Assembly: GCA_027449865.1 (NCBI GenBank)
Contig: DAIDKV010000251.1
Location: 1 to 63,728, forward strand
Length of the DNA: 63,728 nucleotides
Direction of reading: 5' to 3'
Source: Planctomycetales bacterium
GTDB lineage: Bacteria > Planctomycetota > Planctomycetia > Isosphaerales > Isosphaeraceae
Part shown: one piece after another, positions 3,201 to 9,592 of the stretch
Layout: the number at the start of each line of letters is the position of its first letter
How positions within the stretch are numbered: the stretch's first letter is position 1
Notes under the pieces: generated by a model
What the model was told of the DNA's origin: nothing
Seen by the model: the letters and a program-made list of their open reading frames with translations, nothing else
The model's database searches: none
Translations under genes and position numbers: made by a program

Positions 3201-3858
3201 GCAGAGCCGCCAGCGTCCGGCCCTTCACCAGCTTCATCGTGAAGTACGGCCGGTGGTCGGAGAGGGTCCCCAGCTCGTGGACCGGGACGATCCCCGGATG
3301 CTGTAACTGCCCGCCGATCCTCGCCTCCTCGACGAAGCGGCCCACGATCCCCGAATCGCCGCGGTGCCGCGATTGCAGGACCTTCACCGCCAGGTCGCGG
3401 CCGAGGCCGACGTCGTGGGCCCGGAGCACGATCCCCATCCCTCCCCGGGCGATCTCGCCGAGAATGTGATACCTCTCGGCGTCGAGCCCATTCGGCGCCT
3501 CGGGCGGATCGCCCAGGCCGACGCGGACGATCGGCGCATCCTCGCTCGGTGGATCGGGCAGGAGCAGCCGCGACGGCAGCTCGCTGCGCAGGCGGACCAT
3601 CGTCGGGCCGCTCCGGTCTGTCGTGCCGTTTCTGTCGCACCCGGCCGACTCGCTCAGGCCGGCGGCCAGGTGCATGACCTTCAGGCAAGTCCGGAGCGGG
3701 CCGGCGAGGTCGGGATGGTCGGCGATCAGCCCCTCGGCATCAGCGGGACGACCCGCCTCCAGCCCGGCCAGGTACGATTCCAGGATCCGGCCCAGCGCCG
3801 ATTCCTCGGTCGTCCCGGTCAGCTCGCCGTTCGTCGAGCCTTGCGCCTCGAGGGTCAT
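262..3858 (-). CDS. Ser/Thr protein kinase with TPR repeats
   Basis: 1198-aa Hanks-type kinase that would phosphorylate Ser/Thr on unknown partners at the membrane. An N-terminal segment of about 130 residues precedes a kinase domain at roughly 130-430. Visible motifs are the glycine loop GEIARGGMG, the lysine in AVKV (near 159), the catalytic loop HRDLKPAN (Asp near 257), DWG (near 275) and the GTPSYMAPEQ activation segment. One transmembrane helix follows at about 454-477. The rest is a long extracytoplasmic region with TPR-like repeats at about 620-1000. The start at 3858 was chosen because its ATG overlaps the TGA of the sigma factor gene (ATGA), which implies translational coupling. A longer reading from 3906 would run into that gene. 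The kinase probably acts with the sigma factor as a signalling pair, as is common in planctomycetes; its target is not known. Confidence 0.93.
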   Translation of the reverse strand: MTLEAQGSTNGELTGTTEESALGRILESYLAGLEAGRPADAEGLIADHPDLAGPLRTCLKVMHLAAGLSESAGCDRNGTTDRSGPTMVRLRSELPSRLLLPDPPSEDAPIVRVGLGDPPEAPNGLDAERYHILGEIARGGMGIVLRAHDVGLGRDLAVKVLQSRHRGDSGIVGRFVEEARIGGQLQHPGIVPVHELGTLSDHRPYFTMKLVKGRTLAALLAERPSPSDSDLSRFLTIFEQVGQTVAYAHARRVIHRDLKPANVMVGSFGEVQVVDWGLAKVLAEGGIADEARALERETWVSTDRGGPSGSDVESQPGSVFGTPSYMAPEQARGDLNQVDERADVFGLGAILCEILTGRPPYEGTSREVIRARATRGDLAPAMARLEGCGADAELIALARDCLAADHEQRPRNAGEVARRMSAYQDGVRDRLRAAELARVEAQTRAEEERKRRKVTVALAASVLALVVLGGAGWTYLARQRAERLLRIEVAMARVESLYEEARRGEVDPSRWIAAREAARSLDGLRADAPDATTRAGLVALVQKVIGAADAADLDRDWLAHLAEIRDSGAYREGRVYHALYEEAFRKAGIDLATMSPAEAGAAIASRPPSVRIDVAAALDFWARILRIQRHDPAGAARIEEVARIADPDPWRCGLRAVLTKADAAERRILLSDLARSARFDEWPVVSVESFGTAMFLSGAPEAESVLRRAVRRFPGNARINYMLARLLESRRPEEAFRYYMAARSLHPLFGHELGHAFLRAGEDDQAIAVFEDLEPSWPRDSTEAIAVCLARALEKRGRTREAREALGRAEVALREAVTRHPDSTAARSRLGHVLFQLGKWEDAIAAFGVSAPPERHNPQAHALLGIALNEYGWMDEAIAESREAIRLDPSYSLPHDTLGVIWFRQNKWKEATAEFREAVRLHPDAAGPHSHLGRVLGIQGDPEGEIAEYREALRLDPDHAESHYKLGSVLLARGQYAEALAELSRGHERGSKKTKRDWSYPSAELVRRAQRFVEIEEQLPAILDGKRPTADADESLAVAQLSYRRKLYAASSRFWYEAFRSDPKLAETLLPQHRYNAACAAAMAGCGQGKDVPPLDEAARARWRQQAVEWLKADLAAWSRDLETGSPQRRKFIAETHRHWKSNPNLAGIRDPAAIEKLPEDERAACRALWKDVDDLLAKTGGPAVKGGSAPGPSRGSG

Positions 3859-4466
3859 GGCTGCTCCTCCAGCAGGGCGCCCATTCGACGGATCGCCCGG
3901 GTCCACAGCACGCGAACGGCGCCCGGGGTACGGCCCAGGTGGGCCGCAATCTCTTCGAAAGGAACACGCTCGATGCTACGAAGGATGAAAACCGTTCGGT
4001 AGTCTTCGGAGAGCTTTTCCAGCGCGTCGGCCAGCAGGACGGCACGCTCTCGGCGGATGATCATCGAGCTGGGCGACGGCAGCGAGTCGGCCAGCGCCCG
4101 CTGCGCGGCGCCCCCAGCGCGGTCGAACAGCTCCTCCAGGGCGACCAGTCGTCGGTGGTCGCGCACGCCGGCCCGATGGTACTTCGCCTGGTCGGCCGCC
4201 GTCCGGACGAGGATCTTCCGCAGCCAGGACGCGAGTTCGGGTTCGTCCGACCCGGCGAAGTCGGCGAACTGACGATGCGCCTTCAGGAACGTCTCCTGAA
4301 CCAGGTCGGAGGCGTCGAGCTTCAGCTCCAGCGCCTGGCTCATGACCGATCGCGCAATCACGCGGAGGTAATTGCGGTAGTGCTCCAGCAACCGGCCCAG
4401 CGCGGCTGCGTCGCCAGCGCGGGCGCGGGCGAGGAGCATCTCGGGAAACTCATCGAGTCGCGGCAT
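3855..4466 (-). CDS. ECF-family RNA polymerase sigma factor
   Basis: 203-aa sigma-70 family protein of the ECF type with two parts. Region 2, at about residues 20-85, includes the DLVQETFLKAHRQF helix that binds core polymerase and the -10 element. Region 4, at about 140-198, has the helix-turn-helix EEIAAHLGRTPGAVRVLWTR. Regions 1 and 3 are lacking, as expected for the class. The ribosome binding site GGCGAGG lies just upstream of the ATG at 4466. The stop overlaps the start of the downstream kinase gene by 4 nt. No anti-sigma factor gene is seen; in planctomycetes, kinases often replace anti-sigma factors as the regulatory partner, so the downstream kinase may control it (inference). Confidence 0.93.
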   Translation of the reverse strand: MPRLDEFPEMLLARARAGDAAALGRLLEHYRNYLRVIARSVMSQALELKLDASDLVQETFLKAHRQFADFAGSDEPELASWLRKILVRTAADQAKYHRAGVRDHRRLVALEELFDRAGGAAQRALADSLPSPSSMIIRRERAVLLADALEKLSEDYRTVFILRSIERVPFEEIAAHLGRTPGAVRVLWTRAIRRMGALLEEQP

Positions 4467-4576
4467 CGGCGGGTCCTCGCCAGTCGGACTGGGATTGCGC
4501 CCGTACCCCGGCCCTCATCTCTACCAGGAGCGATCGTTCCAATCCAGCCGCTGCGATGGGGCCCGGGCCCCTCGGG

Positions 4577-5671
4577 TCATCGACCAGAGGACTCCCGCAG
4601 ACATTCGCCCACGTCCCAGAGCCGGAGGTCGCCGTCGCTCCCCGTCGCGGCCAGCAGTCGGCCGTCGGGCGAGAAGGTCACGGTGCGCAGGAACTCCGAG
4701 CGGCCGTCGAGCCGACGGACCAACCGGCCAGTCTCGACGTCCCACAGTCCGGCGGCTCCATCGTCGGCTGCGGTGGCCAGCAGCCCCCCATCGGGCGAGA
4801 ACGCGACCGAACGACAGGGCCGGGAATGTCCCGCGATGACCCGCACCGGCTCGCCGGTCGCGGCGTCCCAGAGCCGGACTTGCCGCTCGATCGGGCTGGC
4901 GCCGGCGAGCCGGCGGCTATCGGGAGAATAGGCCAGGGCCCCGATCGCACCAACGCGTTGCCCGATCCGCCGCTCCAGCCGGCCGGTGGACAGATCCCAG
5001 ACCCGTATCCCCAGGTCCTCCGCGGTCGACCCCGCGGCCGAGGCCAGCGACCGGCCGTCAGGGGCCAGGGCCATCGAGATCGAGGGCCTCGAATGCCCGC
5101 GGAGGGTCATCCGCACCCGGCCCGAATCGAGGTCCCAGAGGAGGATGTCCGTCGAGTCAGAGCCCGCGACGACCAGCATCCGCCCGTCCGTCGAGAACTT
5201 CAACTGGGTCGGATTCGGGATGGGAATCCCCAGCGGGCGGCCGCGAGGAGGTTCGCTCAGCTCCCAGAGCATGGCGTCCAGCCCGAGCCCGCCGACGGCC
5301 AGTCGGCCGTCGGGCGAGAAGGCCAGGTGCCGCGCATGGCCGCCGACCGCGAGGGGCGGTCCCGGGCTCCAGTCTGCTCCGACCCGCCAGAACAGGAGAC
5401 GCCCCGCGTCGTCGGTCGTCGCCGCAAGCTGGCCGTCGGGATGGAAAACCAGGTTGACCATCGGTGTCGGCCAGGGCCCGGGAGCCCGGCGGGCCGGCAC
5501 CGCGAGCGGTTCCCCCCGCCGCCACGGCAGACAGGGCAGGGCGATCGCCAGGACCAGCCCCATCGCGATCCGCCTCCGGCTCCAGGCCACCTCGCAGATT
5601 CGCGCGGCCTTCCCGCCCGACAGCTCACCGTCACGCGACCACCCGGCGGTCTCGTCCGTGGATCTGATCAT
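4577..5671 (-). CDS. WD40 repeat protein with N-terminal membrane segment
   Basis: 364-aa protein made almost entirely of WD40 repeats, seen as recurring FSPDGRLLA..D..LRLWD units from about residue 85 to the C-terminus, enough for one seven-bladed propeller. A hydrophobic stretch near residues 36-51 (RRRIAMGLVLAIALPCLP) suggests a signal anchor, so the propeller may be outside the cytoplasm. The start at 5671 is preceded by GAGGAG at 8 nt; a longer reading to 5719 has no such site. It lies 110 bp upstream of the sigma factor gene on the same strand and may be co-transcribed. Its role is probably as a protein-binding platform; no enzymatic domain is visible. Confidence 0.85.
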   Translation of the reverse strand: MIRSTDETAGWSRDGELSGGKAARICEVAWSRRRIAMGLVLAIALPCLPWRRGEPLAVPARRAPGPWPTPMVNLVFHPDGQLAATTDDAGRLLFWRVGADWSPGPPLAVGGHARHLAFSPDGRLAVGGLGLDAMLWELSEPPRGRPLGIPIPNPTQLKFSTDGRMLVVAGSDSTDILLWDLDSGRVRMTLRGHSRPSISMALAPDGRSLASAAGSTAEDLGIRVWDLSTGRLERRIGQRVGAIGALAYSPDSRRLAGASPIERQVRLWDAATGEPVRVIAGHSRPCRSVAFSPDGGLLATAADDGAAGLWDVETGRLVRRLDGRSEFLRTVTFSPDGRLLAATGSDGDLRLWDVGECLRESSGR

Positions 5672-5864
5672 GGGGATTCTCCTCGCGGGCCGACCCGCGG
5701 GTCGTCGGCGGTCTATCATCGTCCATCCTCTCCACCCTCCCCTGACGACGAAGCCAACGATCTGTTACACCAGCCGATCGGAATCCGCGAAAACCCACAA
5801 AACGATGACCCTGACCGAGATCCTCGCGGGATTCGTACGGAGTGGGTCTCATCCCCGACACGAG

Positions 5865-6100
5865 GACTCTGTAGCGAGGATGCCGGGGGAATGGAGAAGC
5901 GTCAGCGCCTTCGGAAACGCTCCGGGTTTGCGAGGGGTGCCCGGGGACGGCGTCCGCAGGACGTCGCCCCCGGCTGGGACCGCAGAGGCTTTGGAGGCGA
6001 TCGCCTCCGATCCCAGGTTCGATCGCTGCGGCCTCGGGACTGCGCCGCCTCTGTCTCCAGCCACCCATCGCTGACGACCCTGCATCCTTGCTACAGAGTC
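5865..6100. repeat. 236-bp element with 19-bp terminal inverted repeats
   Basis: GACTCTGTAGCGAGGATGC at 5865-5883 is matched in reverse complement at 6082-6100 with a single mismatch (18/19). Inside lies a perfect 16-bp palindrome GGAGGCGATCGCCTCC at 5993-6008 and an imperfect hairpin around 5942-5969. The minus strand would read the peptide TRSVSEG, which I associate with non-coding repeats often mistranslated in planctomycete genomes. The structure resembles a MITE-like or REP-like non-autonomous element. No transposase is encoded and no clear target duplication is visible. Confidence 0.6.
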
Positions 6101-6259
6101 GAAAAGGACCGCTGTTTCCGGGCATGAAACGGGGCTGTCTTGCTCCGTGAAGTTCATGAAACCGCCGGCTGGAGTGTTCGAAGAGCCTACATGTGTTCCA
6201 ATGCCGAATCGCCTCCGATAGGACGACCTGAATCGACACCCGCTCGGGTATTGCCATCA

Positions 6260-6523
6260 TCAGTCGAAGGCATACAACCGATCGGGATTGTTCTGGTCAC
6301 GGTCTGGCCGGCGGATCGCAACAGGGACTTCGCGTTTCATTAGAATGCTTTCAGTGTTCTCGATGATGCGAGCCAGGGCCAGGGAACGGGGTAAGTCGTT
6401 GATGGCGTCGGGATCGACGGAGGAATACTCCGGACGCCCATGACGTCGGCGGCGTGCAGACCGTTCAGCCAGGCCTGTCACTCCGGAAAGTCTCTCAATC
6501 TGGTGCGACACGGTTCTCACCAT
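6260..6523 (-). CDS. doubtful small ORF
   Basis: 87-codon open frame beginning MVRTVSHQIERL and ending NPDRLYAFD. The second half looks protein-like, but third-position GC is clearly lower than in neighbouring genes. GAGAGG abuts the ATG rather than standing at a normal distance; the GTG one codon later has a 3-nt spacing. No domain is recognised. It may be a gene remnant in the repeat-rich gap. Confidence 0.2.
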   Translation of the reverse strand: MVRTVSHQIERLSGVTGLAERSARRRRHGRPEYSSVDPDAINDLPRSLALARIIENTESILMKREVPVAIRRPDRDQNNPDRLYAFD

Positions 6524-6712
6524 CCTCTCTCAAGTTCAGGAAAGCGTTTTCGGGAACCTCGACAATCGGATCCCCGCGACAACCGCGATCGTCACCCTGA
6601 CCGGGAGAGCCGTGACGCCGTTCGCGATGTCCTCGCTGCCGGGACCGTGGGGGGATCGCGATCGTCGACTATCCTTGTAGTGGCGTGATGCCGACCGGCG
6701 GCGCCTGATCAC

Positions 6713-6899
6713 TCCGACCTGTGGGTCGGAGGCACTCAGCCCGACTGGTCCCAGATTGCTGACCGAATGAGAGACGCGGCGATGAGCCACATGACGTAGC
6801 CAATCACGGCGTCGAGGACTCGCCAGGCCGAGGGCCGGCGGACTGAAGGACCACCGGTTGGAAGCCGGTGGGTTCGACAGTCGGCTGAAAGTCCGACTG
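6713..6899. repeat. cluster of three short perfect hairpins
   Basis: Three perfect inverted repeats lie within 187 bp: TCCGACC 6713-6719 with GGTCGGA 6724-6730, CCACCGG 6851-6857 with CCGGTGG 6865-6871, and CAGTCGG 6878-6884 with CCGACTG 6893-6899. The last two are 6 bp apart, giving a tandem pair of stem-loops. There is no T-run, so these are more likely repeats or a structured RNA than terminators. Confidence 0.45.
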
Positions 6900-7075
6900 G
6901 TGTTCGAGCCAGAGAAGATCAGCGATCCCGGAAGCCTCGCCCCTTCAACATCCTCCGAGTTCGCCAGCCTCCGATACCAATCAGGCCCAGCCAAACGCAC
7001 TGGAAGTAGTCGCCTGGAAGGCGAGGGTTTTTAGATCCCAGAATGAGACAATAATGCCGCATTATCGGCCAGAGA

Positions 7076-7152
7076 AAATGGTGTCAGTTCTTTTTACGGC
7101 CCTCGCCGTAAAAAGAACTGACACCATTTATCCCTCGACACCATTTATCCCT
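7076..7152. repeat. REP-like 25-bp palindrome with tandem tail
   Basis: AAATGGTGTCAGTTCTTTTT (start of a 25-nt arm, 7076-7100) is followed after a 4-nt loop (7101-7104) by its perfect reverse complement at 7105-7129. The end of the right arm is then repeated: GACACCATTTATCCCT occurs at 7120-7135 and 7137-7152, a 17-bp tandem period. The AT-rich composition contrasts with the surroundings. It resembles the REP palindromes moved by RAYT (IS200-like) transposases, although no such gene is in the window. It abuts the broken end of the RHS fragment. Confidence 0.65.
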
Positions 7153-7564
7153 TCTGCCACTGGGGCGAGTAGTAGAGGTGGTCGGTCGAGCCGGTGCCGT
7201 AGGTCTCGGTGATCCGCCGCCCCAGCGCGTCATACGCATACGAGGCCACCGCGGTCGAGCCGCTCCGGACCGAGACGAGCTGGTCCCAGGCGTTGTAGAC
7301 GAAGGTCAGGCCGGCATCGCTGGTGGTGTTGCCGTTGTGGTCGAAGGCCGGGGCGGTGCTGCCGGAGACCGAGGTGGCCTGGTTCTGGGCGTTGAAGGTC
7401 TGGGTGGTGGTCGAGCCGTTGGTGGTGACGCCGGACCAGTTGCCGACGGAGTCGAGCGACCACGACTGCGAGGCCGAGGGGCTCGCGATCGTGTCGAGCT
7501 GATTGCCGTTGATTCCGGAGGCGGAGAGGGTGCCGCGGGCCTCGGCGGAGTCGGACGTCACCAA
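7145..7564 (-). pseudogene. RHS-repeat protein fragment
   Basis: A 139-codon frame matches the C-terminal core of RHS/YD-repeat proteins: repeated units such as NAQNQATSVSG, FDHNGNTTSDAGLTFVYNAWDQLV and SYAYDALGRRITETYG, ending LYYSPQWQ. Full RHS proteins are many hundreds of residues long and continue past this point into a variable toxic tip. Here the frame ends in KG-stop exactly where the REP-like tandem repeat begins, and its 5' side fades without a credible start. This is a remnant left by recombination or insertion. Confidence 0.75.
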
Positions 7565-7939
7565 TTACCGGGTCCATCCCGGGCAAAAAACGAGGATCGG
7601 ATGGGAAGGTCATTACGAGTCCCACCTCCGCGTCCGGATCGATCAGCGGGAGCGGGCGAGGCCCGGCAGGGACGGGGCGTTCCGGGAGGCGATCGCGAGC
7701 GTCTGCTCCCCGTATGCCGATAGCCTCAACGACCGGGAGCAGCCCCAGGCCGCGCGAGCCTACTGGCTGCGTTCTCTGACTGAGGGTGGCGTCCCGTCAG
7801 ATCCCCGGATCCACCCGTTGGATCCTCAAGGGCTACGTCCCGACGACCGTCCGACGGTCGCTGCGAGGCACCCTCGCCTCCCCGCGCGGACGAAAGGCGG
7901 CCGTGCATCTCGGTTGATGCGTATGTCTATGCGAAGTGA
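7565..7939. other. gene-free stretch
   Basis: 375 bp between the RHS remnant and the PPC-domain gene. Open frames cross it on both strands, but none shows a recognisable domain or a good ribosome binding site. I see no strong hairpin, promoter or repeat in it. Confidence 0.4.
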
Positions 7940-9592
7940 CTATTTTTGAGCCTTCTTCACATCGCGGTAGACCGTCAGCCAGGGCCGATCGGTCCGGGCC
8001 TCGACGCTCGCAATCGGTGCCGAGGCAGCGCGGGTGGTCCGAGGGCCCTTCGTCGTCCGCCCGATGATGCGGAACGGGCCCGATGTCGGGCTGTCGCCGC
8101 CCGAGAGTTCCAGCTCGACCGAGCTGGCCGACGCATCGCCCGACTTCGAGGTCATCGGCTTCGCCCGGACGCCGGTCGGGAGGCCCTCGGCGCCGATCTC
8201 GATCGGTTCGGAGAGGCGATTCTGACGTTTGATCGCCACCTTGATCTTCGTCGTTTTCCCCGGAGTCAGCTCGAAACGATCGGCGGCTAGCGTCAGCTCG
8301 AAGTCGGGGCGAGGCTCGCGGATCGTTAGCAGATAGGCGAACCGGGGACCGCCCCGGCCGTGGAGGTCGCGCACGAGAATCCGGTAGTCGCCATCCGCCG
8401 GCGCCGTGAAGGATCTTCCGGCATCCCGATCGTTGCCGTCGTCGTCCGACTCGGCGACGACCTTCCCCGCCGCGTCGAGGATGCGGAGGACCGGATCGAG
8501 CGGTCGACCCAGGGCACGCGACTCGACGCGGATCGATCGTGTTTCTCCTTTCTTCAGCGAAAGGCGGAAGGCGTCGCGATCTCCGGGTGGATCGATCCGG
8601 CCGCTGACCGCGATCGGGTCGGAGATCGCTTGCGGATGCGACGGGTCGTTCGGCTCGGCCTCGACCGTCGCGGGGCAGTGGAGATGCCGGACCTCGGCCT
8701 CCCCCGAGAGCGAGCCGGCGGCCACCGGGAGCACCTCGCGATCGTCCTGGTTTGGGACCGGCAGCGACCCGGCCCCTGGGATGTTCCAGCCGATGGCCTC
8801 GACCACCGCCGGCCCGTCCCGGCCGACCGCGAGAGGGAAGGCGTAGTCGAGGAAGCCGCCGGTCGTCAGGGTGAGTCGATAGATGTAGTCGCTCCCGCCG
8901 GCGAAACGGATGCTGCTGTCGGGCTTGCTCGGGAATGCGAAGAGCCGGACGACGTAGCGGCCGGAGGTCGGCGCCTCGAAGACGATCCGGGGGTCGGGGC
9001 CGACGTCGTCGTCGTTCTGGGCGAGCACCGAGCCTTCCGGCGTGGCGACCTGGAGCACGGCGTCCATCGGCGAGCCGAGTCGCCCCGCCGCCTCGACGCT
9101 GGCGATCATCGTCTGGCCGCGTTCGAGCTCGATGGCGAATCCGTCCACGTCCCCCGATTTTGAGAGTCGGCCGTTGACCGTCGTGGACGACCGCTCCAGG
9201 CGATGGGCCGCCTTCGGCTCGTCGTTCGGCTCGACCTCGATTGTCTCGGGCAGGACGCCGACGACGAACGGGCGCAGCTCGGTCGCGCCCTCGTCGTCGT
9301 GGAGCCGGATCCAGCGGAGGCCGGGCGCTGCGTCGGGCGCGACGACGGCCGAGAGCTTTCCCTTTGCCTTCTCGGCGCGGATCTCGACGCCCGGCCCGTC
9401 GACCCACGCCCCGAGAGGCCAGCGGTCGAAGCTCCCCGCGGCCTCGATTGCGACGGTCTGCCCGCGCGAGGCCCCCGGCGGGAAGAATCCGGTCAACGTC
9501 GGCGGCTTCGCGGGGCTGGAACCCGGGGCGAACAAAATCGCACCGACGATCGCCAGCGGCAGTTTCCAGGAGAGTCGCAAGGGAGGGCTCAT
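7940..9592 (-). CDS. secreted protein with two PPC domains
   Basis: 550-aa secreted protein. An N-terminal signal peptide (residues 1-28, ending GSSPAKP) is followed by an Ig-like region (about 30-112) and two bacterial pre-peptidase C-terminal (PPC) domains opening with EPNDEPKAAHRL (121) and EPNDPSHPQAI (313). Each has the GDVDGF or GDRDAF and DPVL motifs of the family. A C-terminal beta-rich domain completes it. The ATG at 9592 overlaps the TGA of the upstream DUF1501 gene (ATGA), which fixes the start; an open frame continuing to 10507 is only an out-of-frame reading of that gene. It is the last gene of a three-gene operon. PPC domains are adhesion or substrate-binding modules; no catalytic site is visible. 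Confidence 0.88.
   Translation of the reverse strand: MSPPLRLSWKLPLAIVGAILFAPGSSPAKPPTLTGFFPPGASRGQTVAIEAAGSFDRWPLGAWVDGPGVEIRAEKAKGKLSAVVAPDAAPGLRWIRLHDDEGATELRPFVVGVLPETIEVEPNDEPKAAHRLERSSTTVNGRLSKSGDVDGFAIELERGQTMIASVEAAGRLGSPMDAVLQVATPEGSVLAQNDDDVGPDPRIVFEAPTSGRYVVRLFAFPSKPDSSIRFAGGSDYIYRLTLTTGGFLDYAFPLAVGRDGPAVVEAIGWNIPGAGSLPVPNQDDREVLPVAAGSLSGEAEVRHLHCPATVEAEPNDPSHPQAISDPIAVSGRIDPPGDRDAFRLSLKKGETRSIRVESRALGRPLDPVLRILDAAGKVVAESDDDGNDRDAGRSFTAPADGDYRILVRDLHGRGGPRFAYLLTIREPRPDFELTLAADRFELTPGKTTKIKVAIKRQNRLSEPIEIGAEGLPTGVRAKPMTSKSGDASASSVELELSGGDSPTSGPFRIIGRTTKGPRTTRAASAPIASVEARTDRPWLTVYRDVKKAQK

Follow-up and report, generated by a model that had tools for sequence, protein, structure and literature searches.

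The palindrome and its surroundings

The window, the whole stretch of 63,728 nucleotides that was analysed, is contig C251 of an 8.48-Mb planctomycete draft genome (G000; in our labels, G stands for a genome, C for a contig and L for a locus in the comparison set). It contains a perfect palindrome with a tandem tail, adjoining a fragment of an RHS gene. The features are as follows.

7068–7079, plus strand: left outer tract, purine-rich with AAAT at its end, overlapping the left arm at its outermost 4 nt
7076–7100, plus strand: left palindrome arm, with the head GGTGTCAGTTC at 7080–7090, a head also found elsewhere
7101–7104, no strand: loop of 4 nt, from the sequence and the fold
7105–7129, minus strand: right palindrome arm, with the inverted head at 7115–7125
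7126–7136, minus strand: right outer tract, full copy, overlapping the right arm at its outermost 4 nt
7137–7153, minus strand: tandem partial copy of the right end (GACACC and outer tract), abutting the RHS homology
7154–7557, minus strand: fragment of an RHS (YD-repeat) gene with both ends cut, inside the ORF 7145–7564; right limit approximate

The 25-nt arms are 100% complementary around the 4-nt loop, as the preliminary description had stated. The sequence GACACCATTTATCCCT occurs twice (7120–7135 and 7137–7152), and since the two copies start 17 nt apart, the tandem repeat described there as a 17-bp repeat of the arm end is genuine but comprises 16 identical nt with a period of 17. In the window the palindrome is the sole perfect inverted repeat that has arms of at least 13 nt and a loop of at most 20 nt, and the longest arms in three first-order Markov replicas of it were 13, 10 and 10 nt. 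The DNA fold of 7070–7135 has an energy of −29.5 kcal/mol (z −14.5) that was equalled by none of 200 shuffles, and the structure predicted for a single strand of the palindrome is a strong hairpin. Such a hairpin would also suit a transcription terminator or a structured RNA of a host gene. We consider this reading extremely improbable: the sole Rfam match up to an E-value of 1 in 6400–8200 is to a microRNA family, at 24 bits against a cut-off of 80, and the palindrome stretch is unmatched at the one syntenic locus checked (G004). No RNA family in 6400–8200 exceeded its Rfam cut-off.

The RHS frame (7145–7564, minus strand, 139 aa) matches PF05593 with an E-value of 1.8e-8 (Pfam). Its stop falls within the tandem tail. 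Contig C105 carries an RHS paralogue, to which homology sets in at 7154, one base past the tail; the earlier observation that the frame is lost exactly at the repeat therefore holds. In a blastn search of 6401–8200 against this paralogue, 7154–7410 is the single match, and across the palindrome the RHS gene does not continue. The far side carries another repeat, 6841–7057, ending at about 7057; it is ~218 bp long, has hairpin-like stretches and recurs, at 73% identity, in two places of G001 (L055 and L060). The other end of the RHS fragment adjoins 7558–7778, where the identity to the genome's own contig C93 is 73% and an ORF has no Pfam family. The right limit of the fragment would thus lie at about 7557, where the C93 homology takes over at 7558, and the inverted-repeat scan of the window revealed no palindrome at this second cut. 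Within the genus, a further RHS match occurs in G004 only, at 37% identity, three of the four relatives being 77–89% complete. At the syntenic locus of G004, a match exists from 7961 rightwards only, the rest of 3801–8200 being unmatched in 15 kb there, so that this genome offers no clean empty site.

Copies of the head and the palindrome

With up to two mismatches allowed, the 15-nt head AAATGGTGTCAGTTC has 18 matches in the own genome, against 2 for the reversed pattern. Two of the 18 are the arms of the palindrome itself, six carry one mismatch and ten carry two. A strict palindrome pattern, GGTGTCNGTTC-N6-36-GAACNGACACC, was applied to 59 genomes including the own one, and found palindromes at 18 places in 8 of them (control 0): two in G000, two in G001, one each in G002, G003 and G013, four in G008, five in G010 and two in G019. 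They span 39–53 nt from head to head. All eight genomes fall among the 37 of family f1, which is probably Isosphaeraceae: the RAYT gene of G013 has the coordinates that it has in Singulisphaera sp. GP187, a member of Isosphaeraceae.

A second head family, CTAGCTGCGTCCCCGTTTCCC or near variants, adjoins other RAYT genes (L003, L006 and L032). Heads of this type stand in tandem at L003 and L032, and one is repeated in tandem near a copy of the head at L013.

Association with RAYT genes

Nine loci of the RAYT sub-family relevant here were examined, and six of them (L066, L067, L068, L069, L070 and L037) have the head or a variant of it at one or both ends of the gene. L071 and L072 have it at neither end, and the ninth, L087, gave no frame. 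In L067, L068, L070 and L037 the head or variant lies upstream, at a distance of about 50–70 nt from the start for the first three; in L066, L068, L069 and L070 an inverted copy lies at or just past the stop. Both ends are thus marked in L068, where the head reads GGTGTCAGATC, and in L070, there as more diverged variants. L069 has a full right end and a partial left end, and L066 (whose contig begins inside the gene), L067 and L037 have one end only. L067, the nearest RAYT orthologue, has no inverted copy downstream. Its protein matches NF047646 (REP_Tyr_transpos) at 87.6 bits, above the cut-off of 80, as well as PF01797, and its best solved relative is TnpArep 4er8 (3.8e-5). The proteins of L067, L031 and other RAYT loci end in an RPRGRPRK-like C-terminal tail, which we take to resemble an AT-hook. 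At L037 (G004:C437), the RAYT gene is broken after the HUH motif, and three nearly identical head units stand in front of it.

In the own genome, a one-mismatch head and a second variant copy precede a frameshifted RAYT gene (C193), and a two-mismatch variant precedes an N-terminal RAYT remnant (C239); more remnants lie on C213 and C172. Only decayed copies of the sub-family, and no intact one, were found in this draft genome, so that the element is probably immobile there. Intact RAYT genes with other heads are present (C202 and C179).

A wider set held 110 RAYT loci with enough flank, representing 104 distinct ORFs. A flanking inverted repeat rose above shuffles in 66 of the 110 (65 of the 104 distinct ORFs) and did not in the other 44. 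Terminal inverted repeats (TIRs) at 47 of the 66 loci have a GGKGWC core, 14 have a looser form and 5 neither. Across family f1, the presence of the sub-family and that of heads agree loosely: heads occur in 7 of the 9 genomes that have the sub-family and in 8 of the 28 that lack it (Fisher p 0.013, with the sets assigned by hand).

The preliminary description had implied a REP palindrome moved by a RAYT transposase, and had suggested a search for the arm sequence elsewhere in the genome and near RAYT genes. Copies do occur elsewhere in the genome, and they lie near RAYT genes in relatives and beside the remnants in the own genome. These copies, together with the heads beside RAYT genes and remnants, indicate that a RAYT-type element is the right class. 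The REP type did not stand, as the ends are TIRs with GGTGTCAG heads and no GTAG foot. A canonical GTAG-type REP or REPIN moved by its RAYT is accordingly improbable, even though NCBIfam names the RAYT protein REP_Tyr_transpos and PMC3116915 describes tandem clusters of REPINs, flanks included, in Pseudomonas. Inspection of the 18 palindromes by eye revealed no GTAG or GTGG at the hairpin foot, the lone GTGG lying more than 10 nt outside (L096), and the copies that flank the genes are inverted terminal repeats.

Where the element ends

Three junctions with host genes bear on the position of the terminus. At the RHS fragment, the C105 homology starts 11 nt outside the second GACACC (7137–7142). 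At L103, the match between a gene and its two paralogues in that genome (84.9% and 85.6% identity) breaks off at 1488, 12 nt before the GGTGTC at 1501; this gene fragment, which we presume may derive from a transposase, has no Pfam family. At L098, the match of an IS66 transposase fragment (PF03050, profile positions 197–282) starts 11 nt outside the head, the frame having been scanned up to the palindrome and the ends of the local profile match being approximate. End conservation and purine bias were analysed for all 18 palindromes. The four bases beside GGTGTC agree between left and right in 16–18 of the 18, and among the 36 ends the purine bias runs to position −11, with little standing out farther. 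The three junctions and the purine bias together suggest that the terminus would lie about 11–12 nt outside GGTGTC. On the same bias, the left outer tract (7068–7079) may reach the left end of the element.

The palindrome at the edge of an IS66 transposase fragment, like the MITE-like layout in general, might point to a MITE that has the same ends as RAYT loci but belongs to another transposase, of the DDE type. This is highly unlikely, given that several genomes have these ends at RAYT genes and that the IS66 gene at L098 stops at the palindrome.

At none of the three junctions was the host gene seen to resume, unlike the prediction of a simple insertion. The L103 gene does not resume past the palindrome in blastn; the far side of L098, which gives weaker evidence, holds two nearest minus-strand frames without a Pfam family, and no IS66 frame was noticed. 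Given that the RHS gene does not pick up again past the palindrome and that its fragment has a second cut at about 7557, truncation of the gene by simple insertion lacks support, and the earlier proposal that the element or its mobilisation truncated it is not demonstrated. The coincidence of the RHS break with the element edge is real; insertion followed by deletion, or the joining of broken ends, could each have produced it.

Tandem copies of the element end

The tail in the window is a partial copy of the element end, and such ends are frequent. An outward tandem copy of the head accompanies 10 of 17 distinct palindromes and 12 of the 32 ends with enough flank, in a count that keeps L106 and merges the two neighbours on G001:C424. 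Another count of 17 drops L106, whose core is the same as that of L098, and keeps both neighbours. Shuffles of the outer flanks, up to 100 per end, gave 2 tandem hits altogether. A search for tandem heads found 87 matches in 16 of the 59 genomes (control 5), and 17 of 136 RAYT gene ends with a TIR, Pseudomonas included, show a tandem, compared with 0 of 136 after one shuffle each.

Five of the 87 matches (one in G034, two in G044, one in G054 and one on G004:C119) were left out, being judged chance because the A/T-rich tetranucleotide is absent. The remaining 82 were sorted by crude class rules, and matches inside one array are not independent: 25 stop soon after GGTGTC (class I), 14 after GTTC (class II) and 43 deeper. 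Five of the class II units (36–42 nt) and six of the class I units (26–35 nt) reach past the main cluster, within an overall range of 26–42 nt, these being deeper or compound units. Head units form long head-to-tail arrays at L226 (G004:C64), L222 (G001:C107) and L099 (G001:C424), where the outer tract is locus-specific and the inner lengths vary.

At 57 tandem junctions, the outer match is mostly 10–11 nt, the inner end is variable and filler bases are common. Cleavage after TC dinucleotides was considered as the determinant of the inner break points and was rejected, as 17 of the 57 junctions follow TC and 15.8 would be expected.

Many junctions with filler bases or little microhomology, at a locus that is a mosaic of fragments, would suit an origin of palindrome and tail on the spot, through template switching at a DNA break and independently of any mobile element. 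For the structure as a whole we regard this as very improbable, because palindromes that share this head recur at unrelated loci in 8 of the 59 genomes and RAYT genes are flanked by it; for the tandem tail by itself, template switching could be the origin. Replication slippage at the hairpin is a full alternative to a nuclease product for the tail. We also offer, as a speculation that is rather unlikely to be correct, a one-ended reaction: a nick by the nuclease at a fixed terminus, about 11 nt outside GGTGTC, would be followed by synthesis of variable extent into the hairpin, a stop and rejoining. If so, truncated ends would build up on the element as a stutter, and host genes would be left broken on one side. 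The many natural end arrays offer material for comparing RAYT action with replication slippage.

Proposed origin of the palindrome

We consider it likely that the palindrome is the fossil of a non-autonomous TIR–TIR element of the TIRtron kind, linked to RAYT. It would consist of two inverted copies of the ~25–30-nt end of a RAYT-encoding element (near GGGAGAAATTGGTGTCAGTTCATTTTTC), with the gene between them absent. By analogy with the RAYT family, its single strand, folded into a hairpin, may serve as a substrate that a Y1/HUH nuclease of this family would recognise, nick and rejoin. The tandem tail would be a partial copy of the element's end, and the RHS fragment may have been joined to the edge by rearrangement, or by insertion and later deletion, rather than by a clean insertion. 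Neither movement nor a clean empty site of the element was seen. Our findings place the hairpin in a RAYT-linked TIR family within one planctomycete family, and the terminus of the element could be estimated from three host-gene junctions.

Comparison with known systems

The comparisons below hold for the parts of the cited papers considered here. In the open-licence literature, covered by a partly unspecific search, we recognised no paper that describes these repeats in Isosphaeraceae.

Corneloup 2021 (PMC8266576) describes REPs with perfect palindromes that are processed by TnpAREP. Both systems have a perfect palindrome that is the presumed RAYT substrate, whereas the GTAG motif carried by theirs is not seen here. 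Bertels 2011 (PMC3116915) treats REPINs and their RAYTs and reports tandem clusters in which flanks are repeated. Our element is likewise hairpin-forming, non-autonomous and RAYT-linked, but it differs in that no GTAG foot was seen, its repeated units are partial ends and, by the patterns used, it has far fewer copies. The copy number of REPs is usually above 100 (PMC2817692), which the 18 head matches and two strict palindromes of the own genome, by these patterns, do not reach.

The TnpA_REP subclasses (Quentin 2018, PMC6006769) have a Y1 HUH core, which is shared by the RAYT sub-family described here. Subclass 2.1 is reported probably to be the TIRYTs, some of which also fall in subclasses 2.2 and 2.5, and in the part of that study considered, no REP-like sequences lie beside 2.1 genes. 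The C-terminal HTH-like domain of subclass 2.1 was not found in the one protein examined, that of L067, in which Pfam finds only PF01797 at an E-value of up to 0.1.

The closest likeness in kind is to TIRtrons/TIRYTs (Di Nocera 2013, PMC3733652), in which a RAYT-like gene lies between long TIRs that are not GTAG REPs. Their TIR motif is GGGGWSAS, and the TIRs are also dispersed, as dimers or clusters, some being self-complementary. In the present system, too, Y1 RAYT-like genes have flanking terminal inverted repeats and heads are dispersed away from the gene. The head GGTGTCAG fits seven of the eight positions of GGGGWSAS and is off at one; the motif itself is present at other RAYT loci of our wider set, for example as AAAGGGGACAG. 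Further differences are the short palindromes (39–53 nt), the frequent partial tandem ends and the occurrence in a planctomycete family. The element is probably a member of the known TIRtron kind, with an unusual end-stutter.
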